A stretch of 64,000 nucleotides of DNA. Source: Crossaster papposus. Taxonomy: Eukaryota; Echinodermata; Asteroidea; Velatida; Solasteridae. Of this stretch, positions 19,215-64,000 are shown in pieces. The stretch is taken from the NCBI GenBank assembly GCA_037893245.1, contig JBAIAA010000531.1, positions 1,736,001 to 1,800,000 on the forward strand, read 5' to 3'. A model generated the notes under the pieces. That model ran no database searches and was not told the origin of the DNA. It was given only the letters and a program-made list of their open reading frames with translations. Numbering within the stretch: the first letter of the stretch is position 1; each line of letters opens with the position of its first letter. The translations under genes were made by a program, and so were the position numbers.

Positions 19215-22200
19215 GCCAAGTTGTGGAGGGCAAGGTCAAAGAGGTCTCACCTTTGCGTAAATCTCCCTGTGAGAAGATGTCAGAGTCATCTATTGACAAT
19301 ATATTATCCAGAACTAGTGCAAGGTAGCCCTAAGGCTAGTATATATTTGGCAGGGGTTCAAACTATGTGTGTTCTTGACACTGGGGCAGAGACGTCTCTG
19401 ATAAGTTCAGCTTTTTACAGGGAGAAATTAGCTAATAAAATGGGCGGTGTAAAGCAGGTAGGGACATACTTGCGCGTGTTTGGTGCAGGTGGATCAGAAG
19501 TTCCTATTGAGGGATATGTTGAGGCCCCTTTGCAGATTTACAACTCCACAGTTGTGGCCCATTTTCTGGTGGTGAGGGACCCTTTAAAGAACGATTCAAT
19601 AAAGCAGGGACAATGTCCAGTGTTGCTAGGGTGTAATGTTTTACGCTTGTTGAAAGATCTTGTAATAGATTCAGAGCACAGAGACGCCAATGCGTGGTCA
19701 TTAGCATTGCAGTGGTATAAACATACTAGGGAAGTAGGTGAACAACCAATGCATTCTAGTGATAACATTGCAGAGTACGAGCAGAATGTTTCTGTTCGTA
19801 CCGGTAGACACAGTGTAACTATTTTACCTAGGCAGGTATGTAGTGTACCATGTTACATCAGGGGTCAACCTGACAGATTTAAGGGGCAAACAGTGCTAGT
19901 TGAGAGCCAAGCAAGTAATGTAGACTGTGAGGTTTATAGTTCTTGTGAAGTCACAAACGGTAGAACTGTCAATGTTTTGATTGCAAATATAAGAACCCAC
20001 GCTCTTGAAATACCCCCACATACAAAATTGGCTATACTGAACAAGGTTTCCCCAAAACCTAATGTCGAGTTAGAAGAAAATACAGATGGAATTAAGGTCT
20101 CGGTTAACAATATCCTTGTTGAATCAATGGGGCGCCAAGAGATTGGACAGGCTCAAGTGCATGATGGTGACTCTGAATCGGGCAAGGTTGACCTACCCCA
20201 GACAGGGGAATTGTATATTTTTGAGGACGGTTCCGAGTACACATTGCCCAGTGGGCTATGTTTAGATGGGTGTACGGAAATGAGTGTTGAAGATAAAGAC
20301 CAGATCGTGAGACTAATTCAAAAACATGATGCCGCTTTCTCAAAAAGCTCCATGGATTTGGGATCCTGTGATAGGGTACCTCACAAGATTGTGACTTCTG
20401 ATGATAGATCAATTAACCAGCCATACCGGCGGATTCCTCCGCACCAGCTTGGAGAGGTTAGGGAATTAATGCGGCAATTTCTTGAGCAGGGTATTATTCA
20501 GAAAAGTAGTAGCCCTTATGCAAGCCCAATTGTTCTTGTCAAAAAGAAAGACGGGTCATTGAGAATGTGCGTTGATTATAGGAAGCTTAATACTAAGACC
20601 ATACGGGACTCTTTTCCGTTACCTCGTATAGAGGAGTCTCTTGAGGCCCTTCGTGGGGCGCGTTACTTCTCTTCATTGGACTTGGCCCATGGATATCACC
20701 AGGTGGTGATGGATCAAGAATCCATTAGTAAGACTGCATTTCGAGTTCCATTTGGATTGTATGAATATACGAGAATGCCCTTTGGCTTGGTAAATGTGCC
20801 AGGAACGTTCCAGAGAGTGATGGAAATGTGTCTGGGGGACTTGAACCTATCGGAATTGTTAATATATCTAGATGATATCTTGGTGTTTTCTGCTTCTATA
20901 CAGGAGCATATTGATAGGTTGGATAAGGTTTTCAGCAGATTGACTGAGTTTGGGTTGAAGATAAAAGGGGCGAAGTGTCACTTGTTTCGCAACGAGGTAT
21001 CGTATTTAGGGCACGTAGTTGGTCCGGATGGTGTTTCAGTGGATACTGATAAAATTCAGAAGATTCAAGAATGGCCTGTACCCCAGACAGCTGCCCACTT
21101 ACGGTCGTTCCTTGGCCTGGCTGGATACTATAGGCGTTTTGTGCGTGGTTTTTCAAAGATTGCAGCGCCGCTACATGCTTTGGTGCCCTCACAGGCTAAA
21201 GGCAAGGCAAAACATAGGGCGAGCATTTTTGGTTGGGATTCAAAGGCACAGGTTTCTTTTGATACATTGAAGCAGGCATTGACTCGTGCGCCAGTTTTGG
21301 CTTACCCTGATTTTGCACAACCATTCATTCTGGAGGTAGACGCTTCCTTACAGGGGTTAGGGGCATGTTTAGTGCAACAGGATAAGGATGGAAGGCGGCA
21401 CCCAGTTGCGTATGCCAGTCGCGGACTGAGAGGAGTAGAGGCAAAATACCCCGACTTTAGCTCTTTTAAGTTGGAATTGTTAGCGCTCAAATGGGCAATT
21501 GTGGATAAGTTTAGAGATTACCTGCTGGGCGCGCAATTTACAGTACTAACGGACAACAATCCTTTGTCACATCTACAAACGGCCAAGCTTGGTGCATGCG
21601 AAATGCGCTGGGTTTCACAACTGGCTGCGTTTTCATTTGATGTTAAATTCCGGTCTGGAGCAAGTAATCGCTGCGCTGATGCATTGAGCCGCTACCCAGG
21701 CCACACTGCGGCAGAAGTTGAAGTAGTTTTGCAGTGTAAGGCACACACGACAGTTATCCCACTGAGAAGGATTGAGACTCGTCAGTCCGTTGAATTAGGT
21801 AGCGCTAGCCAACCCCCAAAGGTTACTGGTCCACCTGGTATTTTCCCATCATGGACCCCAGAGCAACTTTCCAAACTTCAGAAGTCTGACCCTGCCTTAA
21901 AGTGTATTTGGGAGCGTTGGGATAGACATTGGAGTCCTGGTGAGATGTTTCAGACAACACTTAAAGAACCAGCAGAGGTGAAGTTGTGGTTGTGGTTGTG
22001 GCCGAGGCTTGTTGAGAGGGACGGTGTTTTGTGTCGGCATGTGACTGACCCTCTGTTGGGTGAGCTTGACCAGGTTTTGATGCCATCTAGTTTGCGAAGT
22101 AAAGTAATTGAGGGTTGTCATGATAGGTGGGGGCACCAAGGGGTGGCAAGGACATGTTCCCTTCTCAGAAGGAGAGTTTTTTGGCCCAAAATGACAGCTG

Positions 22201-22269
22201 CAGTGCGAAAGCACATTAGTAGGTGTAGACAATGCGTCATTGCTAAAGCATCTGAGCCCCAACCACGGG
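19215..22269 (+). pseudogene. Gypsy C pol, 5' part: protease, RT, RNase H, integrase zinc domain (split by insertion)
   Basis: Open from the base after the gag stop. Domains in order: aspartic protease (VQTMCVLDTGAETSLIS, intact DTG); RT (SLRMCVDYRKLNTKTIRDSF; FSSLDLAHGYHQ; FGLVNVPGTFQ; LLIYLDDILVFS; FLGLAGYYRRFVRGFSKIA); RNase H (FILEVDASLQGLGACLVQ, VLTDNNPLSHL, RCADALSRY); integrase HHCC (HDRWGHQG ... CRQCVIAKASE). About 1,018 codons carry no stop or frameshift, and the catalytic residues are present. The frame ends artificially inside the TIR element that starts at 22270. Coding resumes after it at 25481, and removing the insertion and one copy of its duplication restores the frame, so this is a once-intact pol broken by a recent event. 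Confidence 0.93.
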
Positions 22270-23378
22270 TAGACTTGGTGCCAAGTCGGTAATAGCGGTC
22301 CACTCGGTATACAGGGGGGAGGTTGCGGTTGCCTCGTTCCCAATTTCGAAGTTAATTTACCGACTTGGACATATCGTTTTCAGTTTTGTACACAACCTAT
22401 GGCAATCGCTAGCAAATTCTATGCGAGCACTCTGATTGGTTCAGATTCCAGAGGGGATAAATATTTATGAGCAGCTTTATACAGCATGTATTCTACGCTG
22501 CTTCGCGTATTGTACTGGTACGCGGTACCACTGATCTCTACAAACTGGATAATTCGAGCGTACATTAATAGGATAGAGAGCCGTGAAACTTGTGTTGCCT
22601 TCGCATTCGCAAGTTCGTACATGCGTACCGCAGACCGTCGAGAGTGACACAGTGGCAGCAGCGATGGTGGGTAAAATTGCATTAAAATCCTTTGTAAATA
22701 ATTAAATTTATTATATAAACTCGCAGACTGTACGATCAGTGAACTATCCGTGTAGAAAATGTCAGAACTACGGTTTTAAGTGAGATTTAGGAGAACATTG
22801 CTCTAGGCGAAAATGTTATTTTTGTTTTCAGCGGGATTTGTTCATTATTATTGTGGTCCTTTCTGAGAGAAAAACTTGAATATTTCGAAAGAACAGTAGA
22901 ATCAGTTGGTCTAGGGTACCCTTTACAAAGGATTGAATTCCACAATACAGGTATTTTCAGATCAATGTTGTACACATTCCACGAAGACTGTCCCGTTGAC
23001 TTTGGTTCATGGTGGTAATTTGTGTACACAACATATTGTGTCATGAACTATTTGACGTGCATAAATGTAATGTACTGTAGAATTTTCCTAAAATTGCAAT
23101 GGTCAGTTTTTTCTCTCACAATTCTGGAAGTGTAGAGCTACCTAATGTTGCAACATTATTCCCTTGGCATTTAATTTATACCTGTATATTTTCTTTCTTT
23201 GTACACTACAGCTAATTGGTTTACCCAAGTCCACTTCTTGCTACTAAGATGTCAGGCTGTACAGCTTATTAATACGGCTGCACAAGTCACAGGACGAACT
23301 GCTCCCATGACAGAGGGATAACAGATGACAGCGAATGTCAAAACTTATTTTGTTTAACCATCAGTAAACTACGGAAGC

Positions 23379-23468
23379 TTAACCCTAACTCCCTACACAA
23401 CAAAGGAAGTTGGAGGATTTTGGAGGAATTGTATTGTTCAATAACAATGGTGAGGGAGTTAGGGTTAA
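23379..23468. repeat. 16-bp inverted repeat inside the TIR element
   Basis: TTAACCCTAACTCCCT at 23379-23394 and AGGGAGTTAGGGTTAA at 23453-23468 are perfect complements. It may be a tiny MITE. The telomere-like wording is probably coincidental. Confidence 0.65.
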
Positions 23469-23857
23469 TTGACCAACTAAATTTTCCAAGATAAGCTATC
23501 TCGGTGTTCCACATTTTTTAGATGTGCTGTAAAAATATCGCAGAACTCTGCATCTTGGCATTTCATGTTTCAACAATATAAGTACAGATAATAAAACAGT
23601 CGCAACAGTCACAAAATTATCTTGGAAACATGGAAGTATACATAATATTCTTTTGAGCTTTCGTATAGTGAATATGTGTTTCATGAAAACCGACAAGTCT
23701 GGTTAAAATTGTATTGTTAATATTCAAAGCAAATTATACAGATGTTAAAATGACATAGATTTACCCAGTCAGTGTTCTCCACAATCTATTTTAGCAGGGT
23801 AGCCTGCCCTGTGTAAATGTTACGCTGTTCTGCCATATTTTTATGCCGCCCTGTTGA

Positions 23858-23897
23858 AATGTTATGCCGGCCTGTCAAATGTTATGCCGGCCTGTCA
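23858..23897. repeat. 20-bp tandem duplication
   Basis: TGTTATGCCGGCCTGTCAAA appears twice in a row, preceded by degraded versions (TGTTACGCTGTTCTGCC, TTTTATGCCGCCCTGTTG). It is a small degenerate tandem array inside the TIR element. Confidence 0.7.
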
Positions 23898-24376
23898 AAT
23901 TTTGCTTTTCAATCACGGTTTTATACAAAACAGAAATTGTGTTGTACAAATCTGTAATATCGTGTTCATATTGCACAAATATCCAGAAACACTCACAATT
24001 CAAAGTTAAAGCCGTACAGGGTGTCCTATCAAAATTTGGCCTGTGAAGAACGCTGCCAAATGTATCTTTGCATAGTATGAACAATTATTATTCTAAAATG
24101 ACATCGCAAGTTTTTATTTTGGTTTTAAATTCATAGAAAGTCGGGGGCTAATTTTGTTTTCGTTTTATTATTTTGGTTTTATAACATCAGTAAACAATAC
24201 ATAATAAGAATATTAATACTATGGCAGTAGTTATTACATGTTATCTGCAGTGTATCAATGCCAAATAAAAGCAAGCAAAATTTAATCCATTGTGTGACTT
24301 GTATGTCATTAGTTACATGTGTGATTGGTATTTTTAATTGTGATTTATTTCAAGTTTCTCAAGTTCATAGTTTAAG

Positions 24377-24411
24377 CCATAGAGCTGTATCTTTATTATA
24401 CAGCTCTATGG
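24377..24411. repeat. 14-bp perfect stem-loop
   Basis: CCATAGAGCTGTAT and ATACAGCTCTATGG flank a 7-nt loop; pairing continues outward imperfectly (GTTTAAG/CTTAAAC-like). Confidence 0.7.
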
Positions 24412-25480
24412 TTTAAGCTCAAACCACATAATTTATTTTTTCTGTCCACTTGTCCAGCAAGAATTGTTGGGACCCTGGTTAAACATTAGGTTTATTCCAA
24501 ATCTGGACACTGTCCCCACGAACAAACCAATTAATGTGCCAAATACATTTTCCTAAAACACAGACATTTTCCCTTTTTAATTTTATCATAAAACTTTTTA
24601 TTGTCTGGATATAAAATTAAATCAACATTTTCAAAAATGTTCTTAATTAACAAAATCTCGTTTTTCTAAGGTTTGTGCATAAGATTATGATGTGGAATTC
24701 TTTCCCCCAAAAAAAACTTTTCTATTTTTTTTTAGAACATCTTGTAAATACGTGCACTGCATTGCATCGTCTCACACGAATGTCTCGTATCTTTTCCCGA
24801 AAATAGGTCTACCTAACATTCAAACTTGGCGTATACATGTCATTCTTGGGTGTTTTTATGTTTAACTTAATTTTCCTGATCAAACTGGATTGTTTTTGTG
24901 ATATTAAATTCGTTTTCTCGGTCGTGCGCTATACGAACATGTGTACGCCTGCAGTGTTTTTAAACCACCTTTACAGATCTCGTACAACACATGCGGTTAA
25001 AAGAGGTGTTCAGCTCCTATTCTTTTTTCTACGTAGATCATTCTCATTACTTCAAGGGTTCGTACTTTGTATTGTGTAACATTACAAAAGTAATAATAGA
25101 GCATACACAACTCAAATAAATCAAGTGTATCACAATGATATATTTTATTGCAACACGCAATTGACCTAGCTAAGTGTGTTGGTCGTTAAACGTCACCAGA
25201 TATAGAAACATGTCCCCAAAGTATTGAGTAGAACTCCCCATGTAACGGAATGGATGAGTCTTCATTTGCATACCAGTGCGCCATTGGATCTCACCGCAGA
25301 AATACATTGCATATGTATTGCGCTGCACGCATATATGAATAACGGTCGAGAACGTATTGATCAAGTCGTTAGATCTGTCGCAACTCGGCACGTTACTAGT
25401 CTTAAACCAGCCGTGCCGATGAATTTCGACTGAAATTCACGGATAAAACCCGACTATCTAACGACTTGTCTTCAAGTCTA

Positions 25481-26583
25481 AACCACGGGTACCTATGAGA
25501 CATCTCCTGGCCTTTAGACCGTTGGAAGTGTTGGCAATTGATTTCGTTAAAGTTGATAGAGGCAAGGGTGGTTACGAGGATGTCCTCGTTATGACAGACG
25601 TTTACACTAAATTTGTTCAGGCAGTTCCCTGCAAAGATCAGCTTGCTGTGACTGTTGCGAAGGTTTTAAGAGATCATTGGTTCACCAGATTTGGTATTCC
25701 GAGTCGTTTACACAGCGACCAGGGTCACAATTTTGAGGGCGATGTTGTAAGGGAACTGTGCGCTCTGTATGGTATAAAGAAAACGAGGACAACCCCGTAC
25801 CACCCAGAAGGAAATGGGCAGGCGGAACGGTTTAATAGGACCCTTTTTGGACTCATCAAATCTATGGATGAGAGTAATCGGTGTAGCTGGCCAGACTTCC
25901 TGCCACACCTCGTGTTTGTGTATAATTCCACCCCTCATGCTACCACTGGTGTGGCTCCATATGTCCTTATGTTTGGGAGGGAACCCCTTATTCCTCTTGA
26001 CCAAATGCTGGGGAGAACTGACAGTAACTGGGAGGAAGATTTTGTTCACGAACAATGCAAACTGCTCAGTAAGGCTAAAGATCTAGTAAGGGATAGAGTA
26101 GCTAAAATGTGTAACCGAAACAAAACTGCCTATGACAAGAAAGCTAGGTCTGAACCCCTTAAGATTGGCTCTCAAGTGTTGCTAAGAAAACGCGCCTTCA
26201 AGGGACGACATAAACTTTCAGATGTGTATGAAAGAGACCCCTATATTGTCGTTTGGGCTAATGAGCACAATGACGTATACCGTATTCGCCCTGCAATGGG
26301 GGGACCAGAAAAGATAATTAACAGGAAATACCTGCGATTAGACCCATTGGCAGAAAGTGAGTCTGAACCTGGAAGTGAGGCGTCTGATGACGACTCAGAC
26401 TGGGAAGCATTAGTGAGTGAGCAACCAGATCTTGAGGGAAAACACCAAACAGTAGGCAGTGATGAAGTAGGTGAGCCCCCTACCCTGTGCGGTTCAGGGG
26501 CCTCATCGCTCATAAGGTCACAAAGAAGTAACAAGGGTAAACATAGTAACCCATTCCATCTCCCTAGATCAGCAGTACAATAA
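25481..26583 (+). pseudogene. Gypsy C pol, 3' part: integrase catalytic core and C-terminus (split by insertion)
   Basis: Continuation of the integrase that starts before the inserted element. The DDE residues are all present: VLVMTDVYTKF (first Asp), RLHSDQGHNFEGD (second Asp) and PYHPEGNGQAERFNRTL (Glu). The C-terminal part contains KIGSQVLLRKRAFKGRHKL and YIVVWANEHNDVYRI, an SH3-like/GPY-type integrase tail, followed by an acidic region (SEPGSEASDDDSDWE). It ends at TAA at 26581-26583. The frame is clean over about 360 codons. It would be expressed only as part of gag-pol, so here it is separated from its start by 3.2 kb. Confidence 0.92.
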
Positions 26584-27096: not shown

Positions 27097-27675
27097 ATGA
27101 GTTATGTTATTTTCGGACACAGTTTTGTTAAGCGTTTAAGATATAGGGAAGGCCCTGTTTTGAATATTGAGTTAAAGCGTAGAATGGTTCCTTTGAAATG
27201 TTTGGGAGAAGGAGGTCTCACGCTGAGTGGGATACGGGCCAGACCTACGAAGTACTTTGAACAAATCAGGAGATTAAGCCCAACAGTACTTATCTTGGAT
27301 TTGGGAACGAATGATTTGTGCTCAAAAGATATGGAACCGGAAAGAGTTCACAGTTTAATGAGCGATTTTGTAAATGAGTTGCCAAAGAGAGGTATTCAGC
27401 CGGCAGTTATAGTTTTTCTGCCTGTCCTACCTCGAACTGGAAATTTAAGAGTTGGCCAGGTTTCGTTAGAAGATTTTAATGCACGAGTTGCGAGTTTCAA
27501 TGAGCTTTTGCGACAATCTACTTTTGTAGAAGACAGTTGGTGGGTTTGGGACCACCGTGGATTGAAACACCCCCGTTACAACCAGGATGGTGTACATCTG
27601 AATGACGCTGGGATGTTACAGTACAAGCGTACATTGCGACAAGTCATTAAGCACTTTGAGTCTCGCATCTGGTAA
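27097..27675 (+). CDS. SGNH/GDSL-type hydrolase-like ORF in Gypsy C (192 aa)
   Basis: Open frame in the position where some Gypsy elements carry env. The four SGNH consensus blocks are present: block I VIFGHSF with Ser9 (GHS rather than the usual GDS), block II glycine in LGEGG (Gly39/40), block III ILDLGTNDL with Asn72, block V DGVHLN with Asp164 and His167. The complete catalytic set suggests an active esterase or acyl hydrolase; the substrate is unknown. No signal peptide or membrane segment is visible, so it is likely intracellular and not an envelope protein. It starts at the first ATG after a 510-bp gap from pol and ends 100 bp before the 3' LTR. Hydrolase ORFs are known in Ngaro/DIRS-group and CR1 retroelements; in a Gypsy element this is unusual to my knowledge. 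Confidence 0.85.
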   Translation: MSYVIFGHSFVKRLRYREGPVLNIELKRRMVPLKCLGEGGLTLSGIRARPTKYFEQIRRLSPTVLILDLGTNDLCSKDMEPERVHSLMSDFVNELPKRGIQPAVIVFLPVLPRTGNLRVGQVSLEDFNARVASFNELLRQSTFVEDSWWVWDHRGLKHPRYNQDGVHLNDAGMLQYKRTLRQVIKHFESRIW

Positions 27676-40217: not shown

Positions 40218-43200
40218 GGTAGTGTAACATCAATTTTCTCATGTATTACCCACTTCAGTATCAGTATTTCATCCGTAATTTTGTCCTCGTTTGTTTGCTT
40301 GTTTTGCCTGTCCGTCCTTTGTTTTCCATTTGTATCTCTCGTTGTGTTCCATTCCAGTGGTTAATCTTCCCTATAGCGTGTATTGTATTACTTATTTCCC
40401 ATGTGTTCGTTATGTAATCAGGTAACAAATACTGGGCAGTCGCTATGTCAGGATTGCATTGCTCACGCTCTCCCCTTTAATCACCTTGATCAGAAAGACT
40501 TTTATCTGGCTCTTTTTGAATTTCAAACCAATGCCAACATTAATGTGGACAGCTTACATCAACTCGTTTTCAACCCTTTTGTTTTCAATGAAAATGTTGC
40601 GGGTTCATCCGATCTTGACCCAGATAACAATTTTTTCAATGATCGTAGTCATCATACTTCATACGATTACTTACTGAGTGATCAATTTAATAATCATTTC
40701 GGTGATGTGAACTGTCTCCAGAATTTTTCATGTTTTCATCTGAACTGTAGAAGTTTACAAAAACAATTTGACTGTATTTCCGAGTACATCGAACTCCTTC
40801 AACATCAGTTCAGTGTCATTGGTTTCTGTGAAACTTGGCTGACGTATGATAGCCCTATTGATCTTTTAAATCTTCCTGGTTATAGTTTTGTTTCCAATAA
40901 TAGACAGGGTAGATCCGGTGGGGGTGTGGCAATGTATATTCATAATTCTTTTTCCTTTGTTCTTCGAAATGATTTGACTCTCCAAACTATCCATTGTGAG
41001 TCCCTTTTTATTGAAATTCCACAACTTCACAGTAAAAACCTGGTTGTGGGTATTGTTTATAAACCACCAGACTTCAATACTAATGACTTTGTTGATTTAT
41101 TTGATAGTCTACTTGCTAATCTTAATATGGAAAATAAGCATGTTTTTATCATGGGAGATTTCAATGTTGATTTATTGAAGCATAATATTCACAATCCTAC
41201 TTCTCGTTTTGTTGACAGTCTGTTTAGCAATTCTTTTTTGCCTCTCATTCACAAACCAACCCGCATCACTGCCACCACTGATACTTTGATTGATAATATT
41301 CTTACGAACTGTAGTGATCTGCCATCTAAATCTGGTACATTGTACTGTGATGTTTCCGATCATTTGCCAATTTTTCAGATCACTTCACTACGTGGATTGT
41401 CACATAGAAATGATACCAGAAGCTCGCATTCTTCTAGGTGTATTAATTCCAGCACCATTTATGAATTTCACTGTGGTTTGCAGGATGTTAACTGGAATAC
41501 ATTATTTTTGTGTGACAATCCTAATAATGCTTTTGATGATTTTTCAGTGAAGTTCTCAAGTTTGTATGATAAATGTTTTCCTGTCCGCCGGGCCGGTAAA
41601 AATATTCATAAAAATCTTAAGCCTTGGATGACGAGTGGTATCCTTAATTCTGTTTATTTTAAAAATAAGCTGTATAAGAAGTATCTTAATACACCGAACG
41701 ATGTTAACAGAACTAATTATAAACGTTTCCGTAATAGACTAAATGCTCTGATTAAAGTTGCTAAAGTTAATTACTATGCGGACTTGTTTTCTAATGCCAA
41801 GTCTAATATTAAAGGCATCTGGAACATAATTAACTCTGTCTTGAAGAAAACGTCAAAAAAGAGTTGTCATAATAAATTCAATTACAATGGTAAATTAATT
41901 GATGATTGCGGTGACATAGCAAATGCCTTTAATGATTATTTTACACAGATTGGACCATCCCTGGACCGAAAAATCCCTCCAGCGCATTCTGACTTTAAGC
42001 AGTTTCTTGGTCACCCCAATATAAACTCGATTTTCCTTGATCCTATATCTTCCTTGGAAATCTGTAAAATAACTGGGTCCTTTAAAAATACTGCTGCAGG
42101 TTTAGACGATATCAGTCCAAGGGTGGTCAAATCTGTGATTAGATGTATTAGTGAGCCTCTATGTCATATTTTTAACTTGTCTTTAACTACTGGCATTTTT
42201 CCGCAGCGGTTAAAGTTTGCTAGAGTTACTCCTATTTTTAAAAATGGAGATCAGAGTGACATTGGAAATTATAGACCTATTTCTGTTTTATCTTGTTTTT
42301 CTAAATTGCTTGAAAAACTTGTTTATACCAGGACCGTGAAATTTCTGGATAGTTTTAAGTTACTTCATGAAGGTCAGTACGGGTTTCGCAGCAATCGTTC
42401 CACTTCAATGGCTTTGATTGATCTCACCAACAAAATCATTAATGGCTTTGAAGATAACGTGTATACTATGGGTATTTTTTTAGACTTGTCTAAGGCCTTA
42501 GACACAATTAACCACTCTATTTTATTGAATAAGTTAGAAAATTATGGTATTCGCGGTGTGGCCCTCGACTGGTTCTCTAGTTATTTAACAAATCGTTATC
42601 AGTGCACTAAATATTTGAGTTCAACATCTGGTCTTTCTAAAATTACTTGTGGCGTTCCCCAGGGTTCTTTTATTTACTAGGTCCACTTCTTTTTATAATT
42701 TATATTAATGATATTTGCAATTCATCTAATATGTTTTCTTTTATACTTTATGCGGACGATACAAATGTACTGTGCTCTAACAGGGACTTGTCTGCATTAT
42801 TTCATGATGCCAATATCCATCTTTCATTTGTATGTGATTGGTTCGTGGCCAATAGGTTGTCTATAAATTATAAGAAATGCAATTTTATTATTTTCTGTAA
42901 CAGAAATAAAAATTGTGCCCATAATTCAACTATTACTATTTTGAATGAACCAATCGTCCAGGTAGACTGTACTACTTTTCTTGGAGTTCTAATTGACAGC
43001 CAACTGACATGGAAACAACGCATTAATGGAATCTGTAACAAACTTGCCAAATCAATTGGTATTATTACTCGGTTGAAATGTTTTTTTCCTGATACTATAC
43101 TACGTATGCTGTATTGTTCATTGATATTACCTTATCTTTCTTATTGTAATGTTGTGTGGGCAAATGGCTATCCAAGTAATTTATATAAATTAGTTACTTT

Positions 43201-43848
43201 ACAGAAGAAGGCACTTCGTGTCGTTTCCAAAAGTCACTATAGGGCTCATACCAGTTTATTGTTTAAAAAATACAACCTGCTCCGTGTCAATTAAATTAAC
43301 CTGTATCAGCAAAATGTTTTTGTTTACAAGCATTCCAAAAAACAACTTCCTGCACATTTTAATAATATTTTGTTCATTAATCATAATTTACACAATTATA
43401 ATACCAGGTCCTCTTCTCTTTTGCATTTCCCTAAGTTTAGAACCTCAACATTTAAACATAGTATTTGCTACTCTGGACCTCTCAACTGGAATAAATTGCC
43501 TACTAGCCTACGAAACTGCTGTAATTTAAATATTTTCCAACGTAATTTGAAATGTTATCTGCTTCAAAACTAAGACTGTTCTGTTGTTTCTTTTTTAAGT
43601 TTTGTATAGCAAACGTACTTTCATTTATCATTATTTTATGTTAGATTAATCATTGGAACCTGTCCTCTCGTGTCTTTGCGTCTGTCTGTCTGCTTGTAGT
43701 ATTCTGTGTTTGTATTGTAGGCTCGCCTACCTCAAGCTAACGCTTTTTTGGTCTGAGCCCCCATTTCCTAATGCTATATTGTTTTCATGTATAATGTATA
43801 TTGTGAAATGGAAATGGAAATAAATGTTCTTGAAATGAAATGAATACT
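40218..43848 (+). mobile_element. CR1-group LINE, nearly full length, inserted in the RNase-H LINE
   Basis: A 3.6-kb insertion with its own 5' region, one long ORF2 and a 3' region ending in GAAATG-type short repeats. It separates the thumb of the host LINE from its RNase H domain. No N-terminal ORF1 is visible. Boundaries are inferred from where the host LINE coding stops and resumes; a target duplication could not be fixed. Confidence 0.85.
40383..43573 (+). pseudogene. CR1-group ORF2: cysteine motif, endonuclease, RT
   Basis: 40383-42680 opens with a C-x2-C ... C-x2-C motif (CSLCNQ ... CQDC) and then the APE-type endonuclease: FHLNCRSLQKQ, FCETWL, GVAMYIHNSF, FIMGDFNVDLL, SDHLPIFQI. RT follows: IGNYRPISVLSCFSKLLEKL, YGFRSNRSTSMAL, FLDLSKALDTINH, GVPQG. 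A small insertion near 42665 shifts the frame; RT resumes at 42680 with LGPLLFIIYINDI and the catalytic FILYADDTNVLCS. One TAA at 43292-43294 interrupts the C-terminal region, which continues in frame to a natural-looking stop at 43573. With two lesions in about 1,060 codons this is a young copy. Confidence 0.9.
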
Positions 43849-44961
43849 TCCCATCCCAACCAACAGCTCGAGGTAGATAATTGGCAGAAACATTACTTTG
43901 CCGATAAGTGGAATGATTCCCATCATAAAACCCCCTTCGAGGCCAGATCTACTAATTATCCCATTACTACTTTTCCCCTTCATAATCACTTCCCTTATTG
44001 GCATTATTATAGACCAGTAGTTTCTACAGACATTTTCGATCGGGTGGCCTGTCTGACTGACAGTAATGACAAATGCAGTATTAGTACTGAAATTATTAAT
44101 ACCACTTGGAAGAGTTTCCTTCATATTTTTACTGACGGCTCCCTCAACCCCGCTTTCAATGCCGTAGGATGTGGTTTTTATATACCGGATCTTAAATACT
44201 CAAAAGGTGTCCGACTTAATAACGGTATTTCTATCTTTACTGCTGAGCTGTTTGCCATCTTGATAGCACTTGAGTGGATAGAGGAAGTTAAACCTCTGTA
44301 CACCTGCATTTTCAGCGACTGCCTTAGCGCTATACAAGCCATCTCTAAACCGTTCCCACAAAACAAAATCACATGTGACATCCGCCATACCCTAATTAAC
44401 ATCCGTCACCAAGCCAGTACGGTTTGTTTTAAGTGGGTCCCTGGCCACTGTGGAATTTATGGAAATGAAAAGGTTGATACTATAGCAAAACAGGCCACCC
44501 AACAACCCAACATTGATCAATGTATCTCCTTTTCAGATACCGAAATCAAACATTTTCTCAAAAAACAACTTCTTGATCAATGATCAAAAACCATCCCCAA
44601 ACTTGACCCTTCTAAACACTATGAACCCAACCCATCTTTTACGTTCACCAGTTGGGGAAAAAAGCGCCCCCAAGAAATTGTTCTTCACAGACTTCGCCTA
44701 GGAGTGTGCAAGGGTCTTAATAAATTTCTGTTTTACATTGGAAAGCACCCTGACGGTTTATGTGAAAGGTGTGGGATCAGTGACGACGTTGGACATTTCC
44801 TCCTCGATTGTACCAAATTTAGTAAACAAAGACAAACCATTCAACATGCTTTAAATTTTTCCCCAACTCAAATGACAATAACCCATATTCTTGGCCCAAA
44901 ATACAACTGCCATCACATTCTTAAATTTATTCAGGACTGTAATGTCTCCGTAGTACCATGA
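43849..44961 (+). pseudogene. LINE ORF2 part 2: RNase H and C-terminal Cys/His motif
   Basis: 43849-44583 resumes the host LINE. RNase H reads HIFTDGSLNPAFNAVGCGF (first Asp), IFTAELFAILIALEWIEE (Glu), CIFSDCLSAIQAI (Asp) and FKWVPGHCGIYGNEKVD (His and last Asp), so the catalytic set is complete. A stop at 44581-44583 is followed in another frame by LRLGVCKGLNKFLFYIGK and C-x2-C...H-x4-C (CERCGISDDVGHFLLDC), the terminal zinc motif of I-group LINEs, ending at 44961. Confidence 0.9.
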
Positions 44962-47347: not shown

Positions 47348-47954
47348 AGTGGGATTTCTTCTCGTCATCGAATGACAGAAGGGCTCATTGAGCCGTGACA
47401 CAGCGCATTGTGTTGCGTAACTCCATGGGGAGTACAACACGAGTGTACATAGTTCCTTCTCGGTTTGAGCATTCATACCTTGCTTTAACCCCCGCCCAGC
47501 CTTGACCCTTAAAATACATGAAACAAGGGAGTGCACCCTCATTCTGCACCCTGAGACGCAACCACGTTTCCTCTAAAAATAATAAGGTTTTTTTCGTGGC
47601 CTCCGAGTGCCAGCAAACAATTGTTGGTTCTCTCCTGTGTAACGTGGGTTTTTCTCCGGGTCCTCCGGCTTTTTTCCCTCTTGAAAAATCAAACACTTTC
47701 GATCTTAGGCTGTGCTCCCGTAGTCATTATGAGTCGATGTGGCCGGCTGCCACAGGCGCATTTACGTACCAGCGGCTCGACCACGTTGTAACCGCGTCCT
47801 TCGCAATTCAGCACACCAGCTGCGAGTAAGGATGATTAGCCTCCCCAATTATTATTATTTTCCCGGGATCGGCCTTCTAGGCAGTAAAAGCAAGGCTACG
47901 TTTCGATTTATACTATTAGGCAAATTTCTGCCAATGGTATTTTGCTTTCCTTTT

Positions 47955-48896
47955 GCAGGAATATGCAACCTTGCCGAAACGGAACTTCCAATCCTCCTGA
48001 CGTCGGCCAAGGATTCGTCAACAGTAGCCAAATACTCGCTCACGTGGAGACGCTGGAAAAAATGGGCCGACTTACAAACTGGCATCCAGGCATTTCCGGC
48101 TGACCCTTGTATTTTGTGCCTCTACCTTGCGCATCTCGCCCAGTCAACTGGAGCAAAGACAGCAGCAAACGCCATTGCAGCAGCCGCAAAATGGGCCCAT
48201 TCCCTGGCCGGGCTCCCGGCACCCACGGACGATAACTTATTCAAGATGGCGCTAAAGGGATACAACCGGCAGTCCGCCGCACCGACAAAAAGAAAGGAGC
48301 CCATTACTCCGGATAGTCTGGGGAAGATTTTGGCAAACCATTGACAACCTGGGGCAACGTTGTCTGATCTTAAAACTTTATTCATTTGTTTTTTGAGTTA
48401 CACTAGTTTTCTCTGATTTGATGACATCTCAAATATTAGGCGTAAAGATTGTACCTTTTACCCAAAATTGGAATTTTAAACTGATCAGTTTCGGCAGGTC
48501 AACAACGTTACCATTGCCAGAACATTTAAATCAACTTGCCCTGTTGCCATTGCCGAAGGATATCTGTTAGCCATGGGCGACAGTCCCGATTCTGAATTAC
48601 CAGTTGTACGCCGTTTAACTACTTCTAAGAAAGGGCTTGTTGCCACTTCTAACCCTTTAAGTTACAATAGAACACATGAGATGGTACTCGAAGCCAATAA
48701 GCCTTTTGTACCTGACATTACCAAGTTCAGTCTTCACAGCCTTAGGTCAGGCGGTGGATCCGCAGCGAGTAATGCGCTTGTACCTTCTTGGCTAGTAGCG
48801 TGCCATGGCAGGTGGAAGACCGACAAAGCCAGACATGCTTACCTAAAACCAAATATCGAAGCTGAGCTCTTGCCTTCACAGTCCATTGGAATTTGA
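47955..48896 (+). pseudogene. DIRS-like tyrosine recombinase
   Basis: N-terminal core-binding part at 47960-48344 (LTSAKDSSTVAKYSLTWRRW, then FPADPCILCLYLAHLAQSTG and AAKWAHSLAGLPAP). After a gap of lost sequence the catalytic C-terminus (48573-48896) reads KFSLHSLRSGGGSAASNALV, the H-x2-R box, and WKTDKARHAYLKPN, where the tyrosine is the nucleophile candidate. The first catalytic arginine region lies in the degraded middle part (48350-48570). The enzyme would join circular cDNA to the genome without a DDE integrase. Confidence 0.8.
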
Positions 48897-54894: not shown

Positions 54895-55547
54895 TTTGCC
54901 AGTAAAGACCTGTGAGGATAAATGACTGGGCCCATTGACTGCCCTCGCTCGGATCTAGTCCAGTGGTCTTGACTTGGTGAATCTCGAAGTTCCGGTCGCT
55001 TCCGTGATAGACGACAATTGTTAGTCATATTTGGAGCTGGTATGTGTCGCCACACTCTGCAATTAGTTTGACGTTTGCAGATTAGATAAAACCGAAGACA
55101 ATATTACTCATTCGATTCATGTTTTTATGTTTCTGTGTTGAATTCTTGCCCAGTGCATATACGCCCATTGACTGCCCTTGCTCGGCTCTAGTGAAGTGGG
55201 TTGACTTGCTGAATCTCGAAGTTACAGTCGCCTATGTGAGAAACTTGGCAATTTGTATTCATGGATTTGGAGCTGGTATGTGTCGCCTCAATCTGTAACA
55301 AGTTTGACGTTCTCAGGTTAGATATAATCGGAGAAAATGTTACCCATTCGCAATCATGTTTGCCCAGTGCATATACGCTTATTGACTGCCCACGATCGGC
55401 TCTAGTCCAGTGGTCTTGACTTGCTGAATATTGAAGTTCCGGTCGCTTCCGTGAGAAACTTGGCAATTTTTAGTGATGTATTTGGAGCTGGTATGTGTCC
55501 CCTCAATTTGCAACAAGTTTGACGTTCGCAGGTGATATATAACCGAT
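54895..55547. repeat. Satellite-like tandem repeat, left block (about 3 units)
   Basis: Units of 215-232 bp: the phrase GACTTG-TGAAT-GAAGTT recurs at 54971, 55203 and 55418, each followed by GGAGCTGGTATGTGTC and GTTTGACGTT. The same repeat in the same orientation resumes at 61560-61980, on the other side of the 6-kb transposon. Confidence 0.85.
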
Positions 55548-55697
55548 AGTGGGGCAGCATGGCCAACCTATTGTGCATTTTGTGATAAAAGCACCAAAAT
55601 TGGCACAGGTGTAGATGGATAGATAGTAAGCAGATATAGATATTGAGCCATCCCAAATTTGGTCTTGGACGGCCATTTTCCAAGATGGCCGCCAATC
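55548..55697. repeat. Left terminal inverted repeat of the nuclease transposon
   Basis: AGTGGGGCAGCATGGCCAAC at the edge, ending with GGCCATTTTCCAAGATGGC. It aligns imperfectly with the complement of 61346-61520. Confidence 0.8.
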
Positions 55698-55917
55698 GCG
55701 TTATGTGAAATTGATTTGAGCATATAATTACACATAGTTGATCAATATTGATGTTCTTGGTGTCTATTTATATAGATTTGGAGGTGCCAAAGCCAATTGT
55801 TATGGTTACAATATCCTACGAGGTCAAGATTTTGAATTGCTTCAAGGTGGCGCTCAAAATCTGCCTTAAATTGTGGTTTTGGGAAACTGCTCACAGTTCT
55901 CTCCTGTGGTCAGAAAG

Positions 55918-57210
55918 TCATTTCTGTGAGCAGTCGCCTATACACACACACAGAGCTGTGCATTCCAGTCCAGCCTTTTTGCATTTGCAACGCCCCACAC
56001 AAGCCTTTTTGCACTTGCAGGACACTAGTTCATAGCAGGTGTTGGCTGCTTCGGGTAGAGTTGTCCAGTGTGGTTCATACAACCCATCATCATTCTTTGC
56101 CCATCCCCAGCTGGTGGGTGAAGGCAGTTCTGGTGCTTGAAGCAGTACTTGGCCCCACACATGGCATCCCTGGTAGGCTGCCCTCTTGATGTGTTGCTCC
56201 AGTGCTGCCTTGGTTGGCGGGATCAGCTGCACATTGTGCTTCTTTGCAAATAGTTTCTTTCTCGCCTTGTTGATGTCCTTGCACTTGCTTGTTCTGTCAT
56301 ACAGTAGGATGACAAACCGCTCAATGGTTTGCATTACTTCTGTTGGTATGTCATTTGGTGCAGAGGACAGTTTCAGCAGAGCTTCTGTTAGTTCTGGCAT
56401 CACAGTCCAGATTGCCCATGCAGTCTTCTTACCATGCCCTGCAAAACTGGACACAGTGTCACACCCAGTCAAAGCATGGAACATTGGCAGTGCTTGTGCC
56501 TTCTCCGGTCCCAGGCCAGCTGCTAGCTCATGGGCTGCCAGGTAACGGAAACCCTTGGCAGTTCCGAATGCTAGCCACAGTTCTTCTTCTGGTTGCAGCC
56601 GCTGCGCTACTGATACAGCCAATACCACAACATCAGTGTCAACAGTTCGGATCATGATCGTGTGGTGGCCATGCTGGGCTGCATGGTATGCATGCAGCAA
56701 CATGCGACTGTCTGCCTCTTTATGGCTGCATGGGGTGAGGGATGTAGTATCCTGCAGTGGTGGCTTGCTTTGGACTGCCTCTCCATCAGTGATCACAAGC
56801 TGTTTGTCTTCCTGTTCAAACAACTGGGGAAGAGCTTCAGATAGAAATGTGAACAGCTGTGTCTTGTTGCTGTCCACTCTGAGGAAGTTCTGCCAGTTTC
56901 CTGGTATTGCTATCCCAGCCATCACACGCCGGCGCACTCCCTGTCCACGCTTTGCTCTTGCAGTGCCTTTCAGTGAATCAGCAAAATAGCTGTCCCACAC
57001 AAGATCCAGTCGTTTTGCAGTTTGAAGCTTTGTTGAAATGTATTGGATGAATATATCTTCAGCATACTTGCCAAAGTTCTTTGCTGTAGCTGGCTTCAGC
57101 ATCTGTACGATGACTGCTCCATCAAGAACTACACTGGTAGTGGTTGGAGCCTGTAACTTGGCATCAGACAGGTCTTCCAAGCATGTGATGAGGTCACTTT
57201 TTGTACCTCA
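55918..57210 (-). pseudogene. Nuclease transposon gene, C-terminal part: FEN1/XPG-like domain and Cys-rich tail
   Basis: A 420-codon clean stretch. Acidic residues fall in the order and surroundings of FEN1-type 5' nucleases: VVLDGAV (D20), LVWDSYFADSLKGTARAKRG (D63), HKEADSRM (E155, D157), RTVDTDVVVLAV (D181, D183) and HALTGCDTVSSF (D241), followed by AGHGKKTAW, like the FEN1 helix-turn-helix glycine-lysine motif. In human FEN1 the matching residues are D34, D86, E158, E160, D179, D181 and D233. The C-terminus has nine cysteines in a C-x-C-x3-C-x3-C-x-C-x6-C-x3-C-x-C-x3-C pattern, resembling CXC/tesmin DNA-binding motifs. The frame joins the preceding segment through a frameshift near 57200, so the whole gene is broken although this domain is intact. 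The nuclease assignment is inference from motif order; I made no alignment by computer. Confidence 0.75.
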
Positions 57211-58302
57211 GAGAGTGCTGGAGGGCATGCCTGATTCTCATGACGAAAGAACTCCTCAAGGTTTCCTTCCCTCGTCTGGCAACCAATGTAAAGCCTTGAA
57301 AAGAGCTCCACGTTATTCTTGAGAGAGGACAGCTGCTGCTTTCCTTTACTCACACTTCTAGTGGTGGAAGTACTGAACACCTTCAGTTTGTTTCGATGAA
57401 TAGCATCATCAATGGGCTTCGTTCTTTCCAGCAGGCATTCTTTGGTGAAAGCCTGGAACTGCTCTTGGCCGATCCTCTTGACATTCCGGACAGTCTCAAC
57501 TGCAGCAGGGCCCGCAATTTCCTTTGTGTCAAGGACAACCAGATCCATGCTCTCTTCTTCAAATGGGTTGCCAAGGTCTTCTACACTGACAAGGGAGCGA
57601 ACATCTTTAGCAAATGAGATTTCCACGCTTGGTGTCTGGTCATGATGACGTGTGTCTGTTTGCCTGCCACAATGCTAGTGGCATTCTTGGAACACTTCTA
57701 TGGCCCTGGTAACTTCTGGTCCAGCAACCATCCAACGCCGCAGAGCATTGGGGTTGTCAGTAAGGCCAACTGCTCCGCCGTCGCCTTTGATGCAGGCATT
57801 ATTCTGTACATGGGCCTGGTCAATCGGGATTGAAGAGATTACCTTCTTTGTCTTCTGTACAGTGAAACTGCCAGCCCTGAATTCCCGGTCTACGTCTGGG
57901 TGCTTTGTTGGGAGTTCAGCCATGTCTTTCAGATGGACAGGGATCCACCTGGCATAGTTAGTGTGGTCTAGGGCATGGAACCAAGAGGCCAGTTCTGTTA
58001 GGGCATCAAGGTACATTGTCAGTGATGCCTGCCGCAGAGAACGCACATACACCAGTACCAACATCTCAAGTTCTAGCACTGTTGCCCAGTATTGAAACTG
58101 TGGGATGTCTTCTTTCTGGTGGCACCAGTCATCAAACTCTGGGAGATCTTCTGCATGCTCGGCTTTGCTCAGACAGTTGCGGTCATAGGCACGGTGTTGC
58201 AGGATATACAGTGCTGCTGCGGTGATTTGGTGAGCTCTCCCTTGTGCGGGCAACATGAGCTGCTCGTAGGAAGGAGTCAGCCGTCCCTGACGTCGCTATC
58301 TC
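57129..58302 (-). pseudogene. Nuclease transposon gene, central part
   Basis: Reads EIATSGTADSFLRAAHV from 58302, slips frame near 58250, then continues HQITAAALYILQHRAYD, FDDWCHQKEDIPQFQYWATV and DREFRAGSFTVQKTKKVISS to a single in-frame TAG at 57675-57677. It goes on in the same phase (HHDQTPSVEISFAKDVRSLV, EDLGNPFEEESMDLVVLDTK). Near 57200 the frame shifts into the nuclease-like domain. A W-rich helical region with conserved YW and HHDQTPS motifs is seen; I recognise no named domain. Confidence 0.75.
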
Positions 58303-58312
58303 GGCTTGCACC

Positions 58313-59042
58313 AAGGCCTGATAAATAGAATACTTAGACTTCAAAAAAAGGTTTTGCGAATAATTAACTTTAAAACTTTTCAGGAACACAGTGATCTTCT
58401 TTTTCATAAATGTAAAGTATTAAAAGTTAAAGATATTTATTTTTCCCAACTTGGAACTTTTATGCATCAACTTAATAACTCTAAACTACCTAAATCTATC
58501 TGCTCAATGTTTACAAAAAATGTTAATATTCATCACTATTTTACAAGACAACGTACTGATTTTCATCGTGTTTTCTCACGTACCAAACTTCGTGCTAATA
58601 CTGTAAAACACCAGGGTCCCAAATTATGGAACTCACTGGATACATCTTTAAAAAATACCTGCAGCAAATCATGTTTTAAATACAAATATAAGACTCACTT
58701 ACTTAATAATTATCTATAGGGGTTGCTGGTCATGTTCATGTAGTCTGTACATGTAGTAATTTTATAGGTTATTTATGTGGATGTACATCGATTCAATTCT
58801 TTTAACTTAAATCAATTTTGTATACGGGTTTACTGGTTAACTTTTGTTACTTGTGGTAATTTTTGTGTCGTTTATGTCTGTAAGTGGTCCGATTGTTGTT
58901 TTTTAAATTAATTTCGTTGGGGTCACTACTCGACAAGCTTTGCTTTTTAGAGACCCCCTTCCACATTATTGTAATCTGGTTATACTTTTGTATGGTTTGC
59001 CTTTTGTTATGTGGTAACTAAAGTAAGATTGATTGATTGATT
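58313..59042 (+). mobile_element. CR1-group LINE 3' fragment inserted in the transposon gene
   Basis: 730 bp flanked by GGCTTGCACC (58303-58312 and 59043-59052), a 10-bp target duplication. It encodes a LINE C-terminus on plus (RLQKKVLRIINFKTFQEHSD ... HQGPKLWNSLDTSLKN ... stop near 58719) and ends in (GATT)n. It is 5' truncated. The host gene continues in phase on both sides. Confidence 0.92.
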
Positions 59043-59052
59043 GGCTTGCACC

Positions 59053-59836
59053 CAGCCGCTCCCTTGCAGCCAGTCCCCCAGAGTCTTCAGTGCTGCCATC
59101 TCAATGTGTAGCCCACCAAACATCACCACCATCTTGTCTTCACCATAGCTCTCCGGCCACTTCCACTGAATTTGCTTGGCCAAGGCAAACAGTGGTTGAT
59201 CACAGGTAATCACTGGTGTCTGCCCTGGATTCAGGTGCTGGACAGCATTCTTTATGACATCCATTGAGTGTCGGATCATAGCCACTGTATGGGCACTGTC
59301 TAGGAAAAGTGGAAGCAGAGCAGTGGGGCAGATGACTCGAGTTGGTGGATGCTGCCGGTTGGCATGAAATGCTGCCCAAATAGTGTGATATTCTGTCTCA
59401 GTCTTGTCCTCCAGGGCCCACTTTGTGTGATGTAGCCACTGATATTCCTCCTCGGTGTGTTGTCTGAAGTTGTCTCTGGTCAACGACGCAACTCTAGCAG
59501 CTGGGAGAGGCAGATTTTTGATGCTGCCAGTGACAGGGGGCACGTCAGTGTAGTAGTGTGGCAAGTGAGCAATAGTGCTGGATCTTGCATCACCAGATTC
59601 TGAACAAATGACAATGCTTCGATCCACTCCTTCATCAGGGTAGGAGGGATGCTGAAGGAGGGAGATAGCAGTGCCATGGAAGGACTCCTTTGAATACTTG
59701 TGAATACTTCGCCACGCTTCTTGGGAGGACAAACCACTTGCTCTCTGTGAAACTGTTGACAGACACTGTTTCCCATCTGAGCTGAGAGCTGAAGAACGCG
59801 GTCATAGGAGATACTCATGCCCAGGTGCGACAACCT
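59053..59836 (-). pseudogene. Nuclease transposon gene, second part
   Basis: From 59833 reads SHLGMSISYDRVLQLSAQMG and CQQFHREQVVCPPKKRGEVF. A frame change near 59725, probably with a short deletion, leads to KESFHGTAISLLQHPSYPDE, then FRQHTEEEYQWLHHTKWALE, VICPTALLPLFLDSAHTVAM and MVVMFGGLHIEMAALKTLGD, ending at the LINE insertion with GSGWVQA. The MFGGLHIEM-type motif is a strong marker of this protein family. Function of this part is unknown. Confidence 0.75.
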
Positions 59837-61021
59837 TTATACCAATTCCCTCTTGCGCGTGTGAGCATGAAGCATCATCCCCACATACATGGGAACTGGT
59901 GTCTCCTGTGCAGTGCTGTGCCTGACAGTTTTGTGTGGTGTAGTACCATGAGACCTCTTGTGTTTGATGCTGTTGAACTTCAGCATTTGGGCAATGGCAA
60001 GTGATGCAGGGGTTGTGTCTGCTATCTGGTCCTTGATGCTGGGACCCTGTAGGACCATCCTCACCAAAACAAGCAGCAGTGATGGCACAGATTCCTCTTG
60101 GCATCCTTCGGGGAATCCATTGAAGGGCTTGGCCTCTCCAAACATGTTGCGACGCAAAATTTGTGCTGCACATGCAAGATGGACGGCATCAGTGTCACTG
60201 TCCAGCTCACAGGCTTTGTTGAGCGCAGCACCGACATCTTCTTCAAATGCCATCAGGATGTATCTCCCTTTGCTGTGTGCCCGCATGTCAGGAAACTGGG
60301 CCAGGAGTCTCTGCTTCAATCGTGTGGAGTGGACTCTTGTGTCGAGTTTGACTCCTAGCTTTTCCATTCTAGACTGGTAGAGCTGGACAAGATCAGCCAA
60401 CTTAAACACTGGTGCCATCTCTTCATCTTGCCTTGTCTCGTCAATGTACAGGACCAGCTCGGCAAAGACGATTCCAGAAACTTCTCGCTCCTTCTCTGTG
60501 TTACTCTGTCCTTCAGACTGGGCCTTTCTGGCACGGTTGTACAGCCCCACCAAGCACTTGGTATGATATTTGGCTTCCACAGCCACCATGTCCCCAGCAC
60601 TGAGTCGGCCCAGCAGTTCTGTGTCTTCAAGAAGAGTGGCACAGGACCAAACCCGTTTGTCCAGTTGAAAAGTTGCTGCATCGTGAAGCCCATCGGTTCC
60701 AGCAGGTTGATCACCGAAGAAACAAGCTTCCTGGACCTTTGTCTCTGTACTTGACGACCTGGTCCGTTTGTATACTGCTGGTATGTCATGGCTCTCATCT
60801 TCTGTCTTGAGTGCTCTCTTTTCTGCTCTTTTCAGTTTTGTTTTGTTGTATTTGAGCCTGCATGTGTGATGATACTGAGCATTGTGTGCAGCCATGGCTG
60901 CTTCAACCCCATAAAGGAACCAAGACAGGACCAAGACTCTGCACAAGGTTGTTGCTAGGTAACCAGTAAGACCAGACTTCCAGACCACTGGATGCTTTAG
61001 TGTGTGCAGGATGGTCGCCAA
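59837..61021 (-). pseudogene. Nuclease transposon gene, N-terminal part with zinc-finger-like motifs
   Basis: 394 codons from an ATG at 61021. Motifs: AAHNAQYHHTCRLKYNKTKL (His/Cys cluster, residues ~44-63), then EACFFGDQPAG, where a C-x2-C would be expected and the second cysteine is glycine, and later DMVAVEAKYHTKC (H-x2-C). The rest is helical (FAELVLYIDETR, FKLADLVQLYQSRMEKLGVK, CQEESVPSLLLVLVRMVLQG, YVGMMLHAHTRKRELV). The frame closes near 59837 and the gene continues in a shifted frame. Because the cysteine-to-glycine change hits a likely zinc ligand, this copy is probably inactive. The true start could lie upstream. Confidence 0.75.
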
Positions 61022-61345
61022 CTAAGGCTTAAAGGGCAGTAGACTTAAAGGAATGGTATATATGTACACTAAAAGTGTCTGGTCACAATAATAAATAAAC
61101 CGAGAAAAACTAATTGTTGGGGAACTCGCTTGCAAAACAAATGATTTACCTAGGATCGAGTGAAATTACGGTTCCCAATTAGACTAATTATGTTAATTGT
61201 TATGTTAATTAGTCTAATTATAGTGCTTTTTATTGTACAAATTCAACTATTGGTCCTTCCCTGAGCTTTCCTGAACCTTTACATGTGAATAAAATCCAAA
61301 TGCCAAGCTGCAGTACTCTGCAGCTGAGCAGGAAAGTAAAATACC

Positions 61346-61520
61346 AGTAACCACAGTCAGCCATTTTGGAAAATGGCCGCCGTGGCTGTCAGGGGTCAAA
61401 TCTGAGATGGCTCAATATCCAAATCTGTTCAAAATATAAGTGTGTACATGTGTGCCAAATGTTATGCCTTTATCATAAAATGCACAATTGTTATGAATAT
61501 GTTGGTTAAGCTGCCCCACT
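61346..61520. repeat. Right terminal inverted repeat of the nuclease transposon
   Basis: Complement of the left end with small gaps; the edge is GCTGCCCCACT at 61510-61520. TTACTCATTCGC that follows is satellite sequence. Confidence 0.8.
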
Positions 61521-61559
61521 TTACTCATTCGCATCCAGTTTTCATTTTGTGCTCAATTT

Positions 61560-61980
61560 TCATTTTGCTGAATCTCAAAGTTCCGTTCGCTTTCATGAGA
61601 AACTTGGCAATTGTTAGTGATGTATTTGCAGCTGGTATGTGTCCCCTCACTCTGCAACAAGTTTGACGTTCGCAGGTAACATATAACAGGAGAAAATGTT
61701 ACTCATTCGCATTATGGTGGTTTTTTTTGTGTTGAATTCTTGCCCATTGTATATACGCCCATTGCCTGCCCTCGCACGGGACTGGCGCAGTGGACTTGAC
61801 TTACTGAATCTCGGGATTCCGGTTGCTTCTGTGAGGAAACTCGGCAATTGTTATTCATAGATTTGTAGCTGGTATCTGTCGCCTCACTCTGCAACACGTT
61901 TAACGTTCGCAGGTTAGATATAACAGGAGAAAATGTTACTCATTCGCATTATATTTTTATTTATCTGTGTTAAATTCTGT
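61560..61980. repeat. Satellite-like tandem repeat, right block (about 2 units)
   Basis: Same unit as 54895-55547: CTGAATCTC-AAGTTCC at about 61569 and again as CTGAATCTCGGGATTCC at about 61804, each followed by TGTGTC/CTGTCGCCTCACTCTGCAAC. Confidence 0.85.
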
Positions 61981-63824: not shown

Positions 63825-64000
63825 GTATGTACATGTACATGTACATACATGTACATGTACATACATGTACATGTACATACATGTACATGTACATACATGT
63901 ACATGTACATACATGTACATGTACATACATGTACATGTACATACATGTACATGTACATACATGTACATGTACATACATGTACATGTACATACATGTACAT
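63825..64000. repeat. 16-bp microsatellite to the window edge
   Basis: ATGTACATGTACATAC repeated about 11 times without visible change. It continues beyond the window. The unit contains the palindrome ATGTACAT, so strands can fold back. Confidence 0.95.

Follow-up and report, generated by a model that had tools for sequence, protein, structure and literature searches.

What kind of transposon carries a FEN/XPG-like nuclease at the end of its one large protein, and is that nuclease the enzyme that moves it? The question is raised by an element at positions 55548-61520 of a 64,000-nucleotide stretch of the genome of Crossaster papposus (Asteroidea; contig JBAIAA010000531.1, positions 1,736,001 to 1,800,000, forward strand), hereafter the window. 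A first-pass annotation had proposed a candidate undescribed transposon family whose FEN1-like nuclease might itself perform transposition. Its DNA transposon stands and so, with moderate statistics, does its FEN/XPG-like C-terminal domain, but the undescribed family does not. With a probability of nearly four in five, we read the element as a decayed AcademX-type copy of an animal genome, with a transposase in the middle of the protein and an accessory FEN-like nuclease at its C terminus.

Results

The region 55548-61520 is a decayed copy of a DNA transposon. Its imperfect terminal inverted repeats (TIRs) of about 145 and 160 bp, put earlier at about 150-170 bp and borne out here, consist of three pairs of inverted arms (55548-55572 with 61496-61520, 25 nt at 84%; 55570-55675 with 61383-61488, 106 nt at 74%; and 55670-55689 with 61360-61379, 20 nt at 95%), and blastn recovers them with an E value of 3.7e-13 over 129 columns. 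The terminal pattern GTGGGGCAGCWTRRCCAAC, with up to three mismatches allowed, occurs at two sites in the window, one at each end of the transposon, where 0.07 would be expected. As the first-pass annotation had said, the element sits inside a satellite that resumes on the other side: the array is short, its unit is about 215 bp long, and with 55146-55360 as the reference unit four more stretches at 81-85% identity lie within 54930-55545 and 61565-61948. The left flank stops at ...AACCGAT, the right flank begins TTACTCATTCG..., and the unit consensus reads AACCGGAGAAAATGTTACTCATTCG, from which it follows that the array is in phase across the transposon with about 10 bp missing. At the junctions (55541-55548 and 61520-61531) this loss of satellite, with no duplication, reflects target deletion or decay. 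Neither blastn nor tblastn finds a second copy within the window.

The gene is a remnant and the copy is dead. What had been called a single long gene is that in kind, one minus-strand gene running from about 61021 to 55918, but it is not intact: it lies in several frames, which change near 59770, 58235 and 57200, stop codons fall near 59837 and 57677, and the 3′ end of a long interspersed nuclear element (LINE; about 58313-59042, 730 bp) is inserted on the opposite strand. Pieces of 394, about 230, 193, 165 and 420 codons remain, the second of them, within the open reading frame (ORF) at 59007-59732, ending as transposon sequence at about 59043, where the LINE starts. By arithmetic the intact gene would have had about 1,450 codons, about 1,000 of them upstream of the FEN-like ORF. 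The LINE was recognized by visual inspection of its ORF and tail, that ORF having no meaningful match in Pfam, and copies of GGCTTGCACC flank it at 58303-58312 and 59043-59052; because it is nested in the gene with a clean 10-bp duplication, the transposon is the older of the two. Without the LINE the transposon measures about 5,230 bp. The first-pass annotation mentioned neither the LINE, nor the broken frame, nor the lack of a readable target duplication. An Asp-Gln-Ala-His motif in the ORF at 57675-58256, which we take to be conserved in related animal proteins and to adjoin what is possibly the last catalytic acid, is a lead only.

It is probable, on support that is good but not conclusive, that residues 1-290 of the 420-codon C-terminal ORF resemble FEN/XPG nucleases. 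The acidic residues D20, D63, E155, D157, D181, D183 and D241 are present as first claimed, as are the GHGKKTA motif and a C-terminal tail of 33 residues that contains nine cysteines. The acids are spaced by 43, 92, 2, 24, 2 and 58 residues, similar to the 53, 72, 2, 19, 2 and 61 counted on the sequence of P. furiosus FEN-1 between the residues that we take to be catalytic. Aligned by MAFFT, unguided, with ten phage FENs, to which its identity is 15-21%, the FEN-like piece agrees with them at 13 of their 24 invariant columns (D20, D63, R78, E155, A156, D157, D181, D183, L187, D241, G248, G250 and K252) and at 7 of their 10 invariant acidic columns. G248, G250 and K252 form the G-x-G-x-K helix-turn motif that follows the last acid and is common to all ten phage FENs. 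Shuffled sequences reached 13 matches in 2 of 600 alignments and 7 acids in 4 of 600; no more than 10 matches and 5 acids came from 38 fragments of E. coli proteins unrelated to it, and reversing the protein yielded 7 and 4. The likeness extends to ExoIX (Xni), T5 FEN, Exo1, FEN1 and GEN1, with which the domain shares the seven acidic positions, the G-x-G-x-K motif and a predicted alpha/beta core; it differs from FEN/XPG nucleases in a longer insert before E-x-D, in its fusion to a transposon protein, and in the cysteine tail.

Profile searches, whose statistics, like those of the alignment, refer to one sequence, give low scores. The sole NCBIfam match of residues 100-290 is the flap endonuclease Xni, colinear, with an E value of 0.12 and 11.9 bits (cut-off 261). 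A profile of the ten FENs scores the domain at 4.5-5.9 bits, and the 4.5 bits of the core were equalled by 3 of 3,000 and 7 of 10,000 shuffles. In single-query hhalign comparisons, all with a probability below 1%, the protein aligned colinearly with Xni over residues 152-257 and with PolA at the helix-turn motif, and gave no meaningful alignment with P. furiosus FEN-1. A structure model built on the FEN alignment has a mean predicted local distance difference test (pLDDT) score of 55 and contains the predicted alpha/beta core. Since the curated family cut-offs lie above these scores, we grade the FEN kinship as probable and not as filed membership.

Two further approaches were set aside. A regular expression for the FEN signature matched none of 200,000 shuffles, yet it recognized just 1 of 17 real FENs, and it was not used because of this and because it had been composed with the query in view; a single-sequence structure prediction of the C-terminal domain (pLDDT 32) was discarded. 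Scans for relatives of the C-terminal ORF, made with a single protein query and thus reaching close relatives only, returned 4 word-pattern stretches in viral contigs and 19 in prokaryote contigs, none of them confirmed, and no match among phages. The degenerate motif pattern GCDT..G.GK found no viral stretch and 14 prokaryote stretches, all with stops within about 100 codons on either side and none, by eye, like the query beyond the pattern.

Discussion

AcademX, reportedly described by Kapitonov and Jurka in 2010 and by Kojima in 2020, is said, in Repbase and in the later account, to encode a nuclease of the XPG type with a cysteine-rich motif. Repbase lists Academ as a superfamily and cites a 2010 reference for it (PMC4455052), and Academ is included among the DDD/E transposase superfamilies (PMC9587614); bivalves hold many Academ elements, with a curated mean length of 5,565 bp (PMC10294476). 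Within Academ, the AcademX lineage is described as encoding a nuclease and resembles our element in its build, both being DNA transposons with TIRs, a length near 5 kb and a large protein that includes a nuclease domain. The proposal of an undescribed family gives way to this named, nuclease-encoding lineage, compared here by description (PMC10045372); a fit to a named superfamily was among the outcomes that the first-pass annotation itself had said would refute it. AcademH, of the same superfamily, differs in encoding a helicase and making 9-10 bp duplications (PMC10045372), and we dropped it as an identity for the element, whose ORF pieces and joined middle part have no helicase match in Pfam. 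Two AcademX traits, the TIRs and the length, are found directly in the copy. The nuclease is found with moderate statistics, from one sequence. Taken together, the listing of Academ, the reports of an AcademX nuclease, the DDD/E classification, the bivalve lengths and the XPG type given for its nuclease make AcademX the most likely home of this transposon.

Several points weigh against reading the element as an AcademX copy with a FEN-like nuclease: (i) it was likened to AcademX by descriptions only, and our literature search found no paper naming both Academ and XPG; (ii) the target duplications reported for AcademX are 3-4 bp long, whereas in this copy no duplication is readable, since 14 x 14 (196) pairs of boundaries gave no exact one of 3-12 bp and, when a single mismatch was allowed, no repeat of 6-12 bp, the material being a single decayed copy whose satellite has diverged and lacks about 10 bp at the junction; (iii) the DDE transposase families of Pfam match neither the ORF pieces nor the joined middle part; (iv) the earlier nuclease claim finds no echo in Pfam, which gives no XPG, FEN, 5′-3′ exonuclease or PIN match for the C-terminal ORF, nor do PHROGs and PDB sequences give a FEN-type match for the transposon protein; (v) for the full 420-residue ORF NCBIfam offers only unrelated families, pyruvate kinase at E 0.23 and, at E 0.012, a decarboxylase of ribosomally synthesized and post-translationally modified peptides (RiPPs), and not Xni; (vi) a hidden Markov model (HMM) of 17 FENs, rich in those of T5-like phages, scores 0.9 bits, reached or exceeded by 137 of 10,000 shuffles; and (vii) the structure model is biased by the FEN alignment used to build it, and its residues 211-290, where the G-x-G-x-K motif and the seventh acid lie, have block means of pLDDT 35-51.

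We suggest that one large protein would bind the long inverted ends, that a DDE transposase domain in its middle would perform cut-and-paste transposition, and that the C-terminal FEN/XPG-like domain would trim or cut branched DNA, such as flaps and gaps, at the element's termini or in the gapped target. Both the DDE domain and this division of labour between the middle and C-terminal domains are what we infer.

Among the alternatives, an unlikely one places this TIR transposon outside Academ, in some named or unnamed superfamily, and has it gain its FEN-like domain independently. Several Kolobok lineages offer a parallel, since KolobokE, KolobokD and KolobokP combine a transposase with an acquired accessory nuclease, and no readable target duplication backs any assignment of our copy; however, the Kolobok nucleases are of folds other than FEN (lambda-exonuclease, DnaQ and His-Me finger; PMC9587614), and AcademX is the only lineage that we found with a reported nuclease possibly of FEN type (PMC10045372).

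A less likely reading, and in our judgment a very improbable one, is that the FEN/XPG-like domain is itself the transposition enzyme, making the cuts in a protein that has no DDE domain. We keep it because the middle part lacks a Pfam DDE match, as do the other upstream pieces, and the seven acids and the G-x-G-x-K motif do stand in order; yet the missing DDE match is weak evidence, because Pfam is equally silent on the FEN-like domain. FEN enzymes hydrolyse flaps, and we know of none that joins DNA strands, which counts against a FEN-driven reaction, as does the DDD/E classification of Academ (PMC9587614). It seems to us highly doubtful that metal-dependent cleavage of the FEN/PIN type moves Academ-like elements in general, the FEN domain cutting the ends or the target and the middle domain serving only in binding or synapsis; if it did, their mechanism would belong to none of the DDE, tyrosine, serine and HUH classes. 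Chance resemblance in a C-terminal domain of another fold is hardly to be expected either, for although there is a single sequence, with low scores from both profiles (4.5-5.9 and 0.9 bits), no Pfam match and a useless single-sequence model, the seven acids and the helix-turn motif fall in register in an unguided alignment, the only NCBIfam match of the core is a FEN, and the shuffle controls speak for the likeness.

Read as AcademX, this real transposon copy is one further example of the catalogued Academ transposons, not a new kind of transposon. It bears on a testable question, namely why one Academ lineage has a nuclease when its sister has a helicase and longer duplications, as an example and not as an answer. 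The parts of the literature that we searched, by names and nuclease and not with biochemistry as the aim, held no experiments on Academ enzymes.

Features of the element and the rest of the window

Table 1. Coordinates in the window of the transposon, its flanks and its parts
Feature	Positions	Strand	Remarks
Whole transposon copy	55548..61520	(-), gene on minus strand	TIRs and satellite flanks
Left terminal inverted repeat	55548..55691	(+)	
Right terminal inverted repeat	61360..61520	(-)	
Left flanking satellite units, ~215 bp	54930..55547	(+)	
Right flanking satellite units	61521..61950	(+)	phase resumes, ~10 bp of unit missing
N-terminal ORF, 394 codons, Cys/His-containing	59837..61021	(-)	no meaningful family match
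Middle ORF, proposed first half of putative transposase domain	59007..59732	(-)	no Pfam match
Middle ORF, proposed second half of putative transposase domain	57675..58256	(-)	no Pfam match above chance
ORF joining middle and C-terminal parts	57129..57626	(-)	frame change near 57200
Probable FEN/XPG-like nuclease domain, residues 1-290 of 420-codon ORF	56311..57180	(-)	
Nine-cysteine C-terminal tail, last 33 residues	55921..56019	(-)	no Pfam match
LINE 3′ fragment, (GATT)n tail	58303..59052	(+)	10-bp target duplication GGCTTGCACC

The window has a eukaryotic look and is rich in mobile elements, and scans with Rfam (at the gathering threshold) and for tRNAs gave no hit in it. The ORF at 14528-15220 matches DDE_Tnp_4 (E 8e-39) and is presumably a Harbinger-type transposase. 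Parts of a long terminal repeat (LTR) retrotransposon, which we take to be Gypsy-like, occupy 18099-26583: a gag-like ORF (PNMA, zinc knuckle), a reverse transcriptase/RNase H ORF that also encodes an integrase zinc-binding domain, and, about 3 kb downstream of the latter, an integrase-core ORF. Close behind that integrase, at 27097-27675, lies a GDSL-like hydrolase ORF (E 1.6e-8) that could be a captured gene. Farther on, one or two LINEs probably account for 40383-44583, where ORFs encode endonuclease and reverse transcriptase domains at 40383-42680 and an RNase H domain at 43840-44583. The ORF at 47739-48344, which has no Pfam match at E 0.001, appears by eye to be part of a DIRS/Crypton-type tyrosine recombinase, and a perfect tandem array of TACATGTACATGTACA fills 63830-64000, reaching the end of the window.
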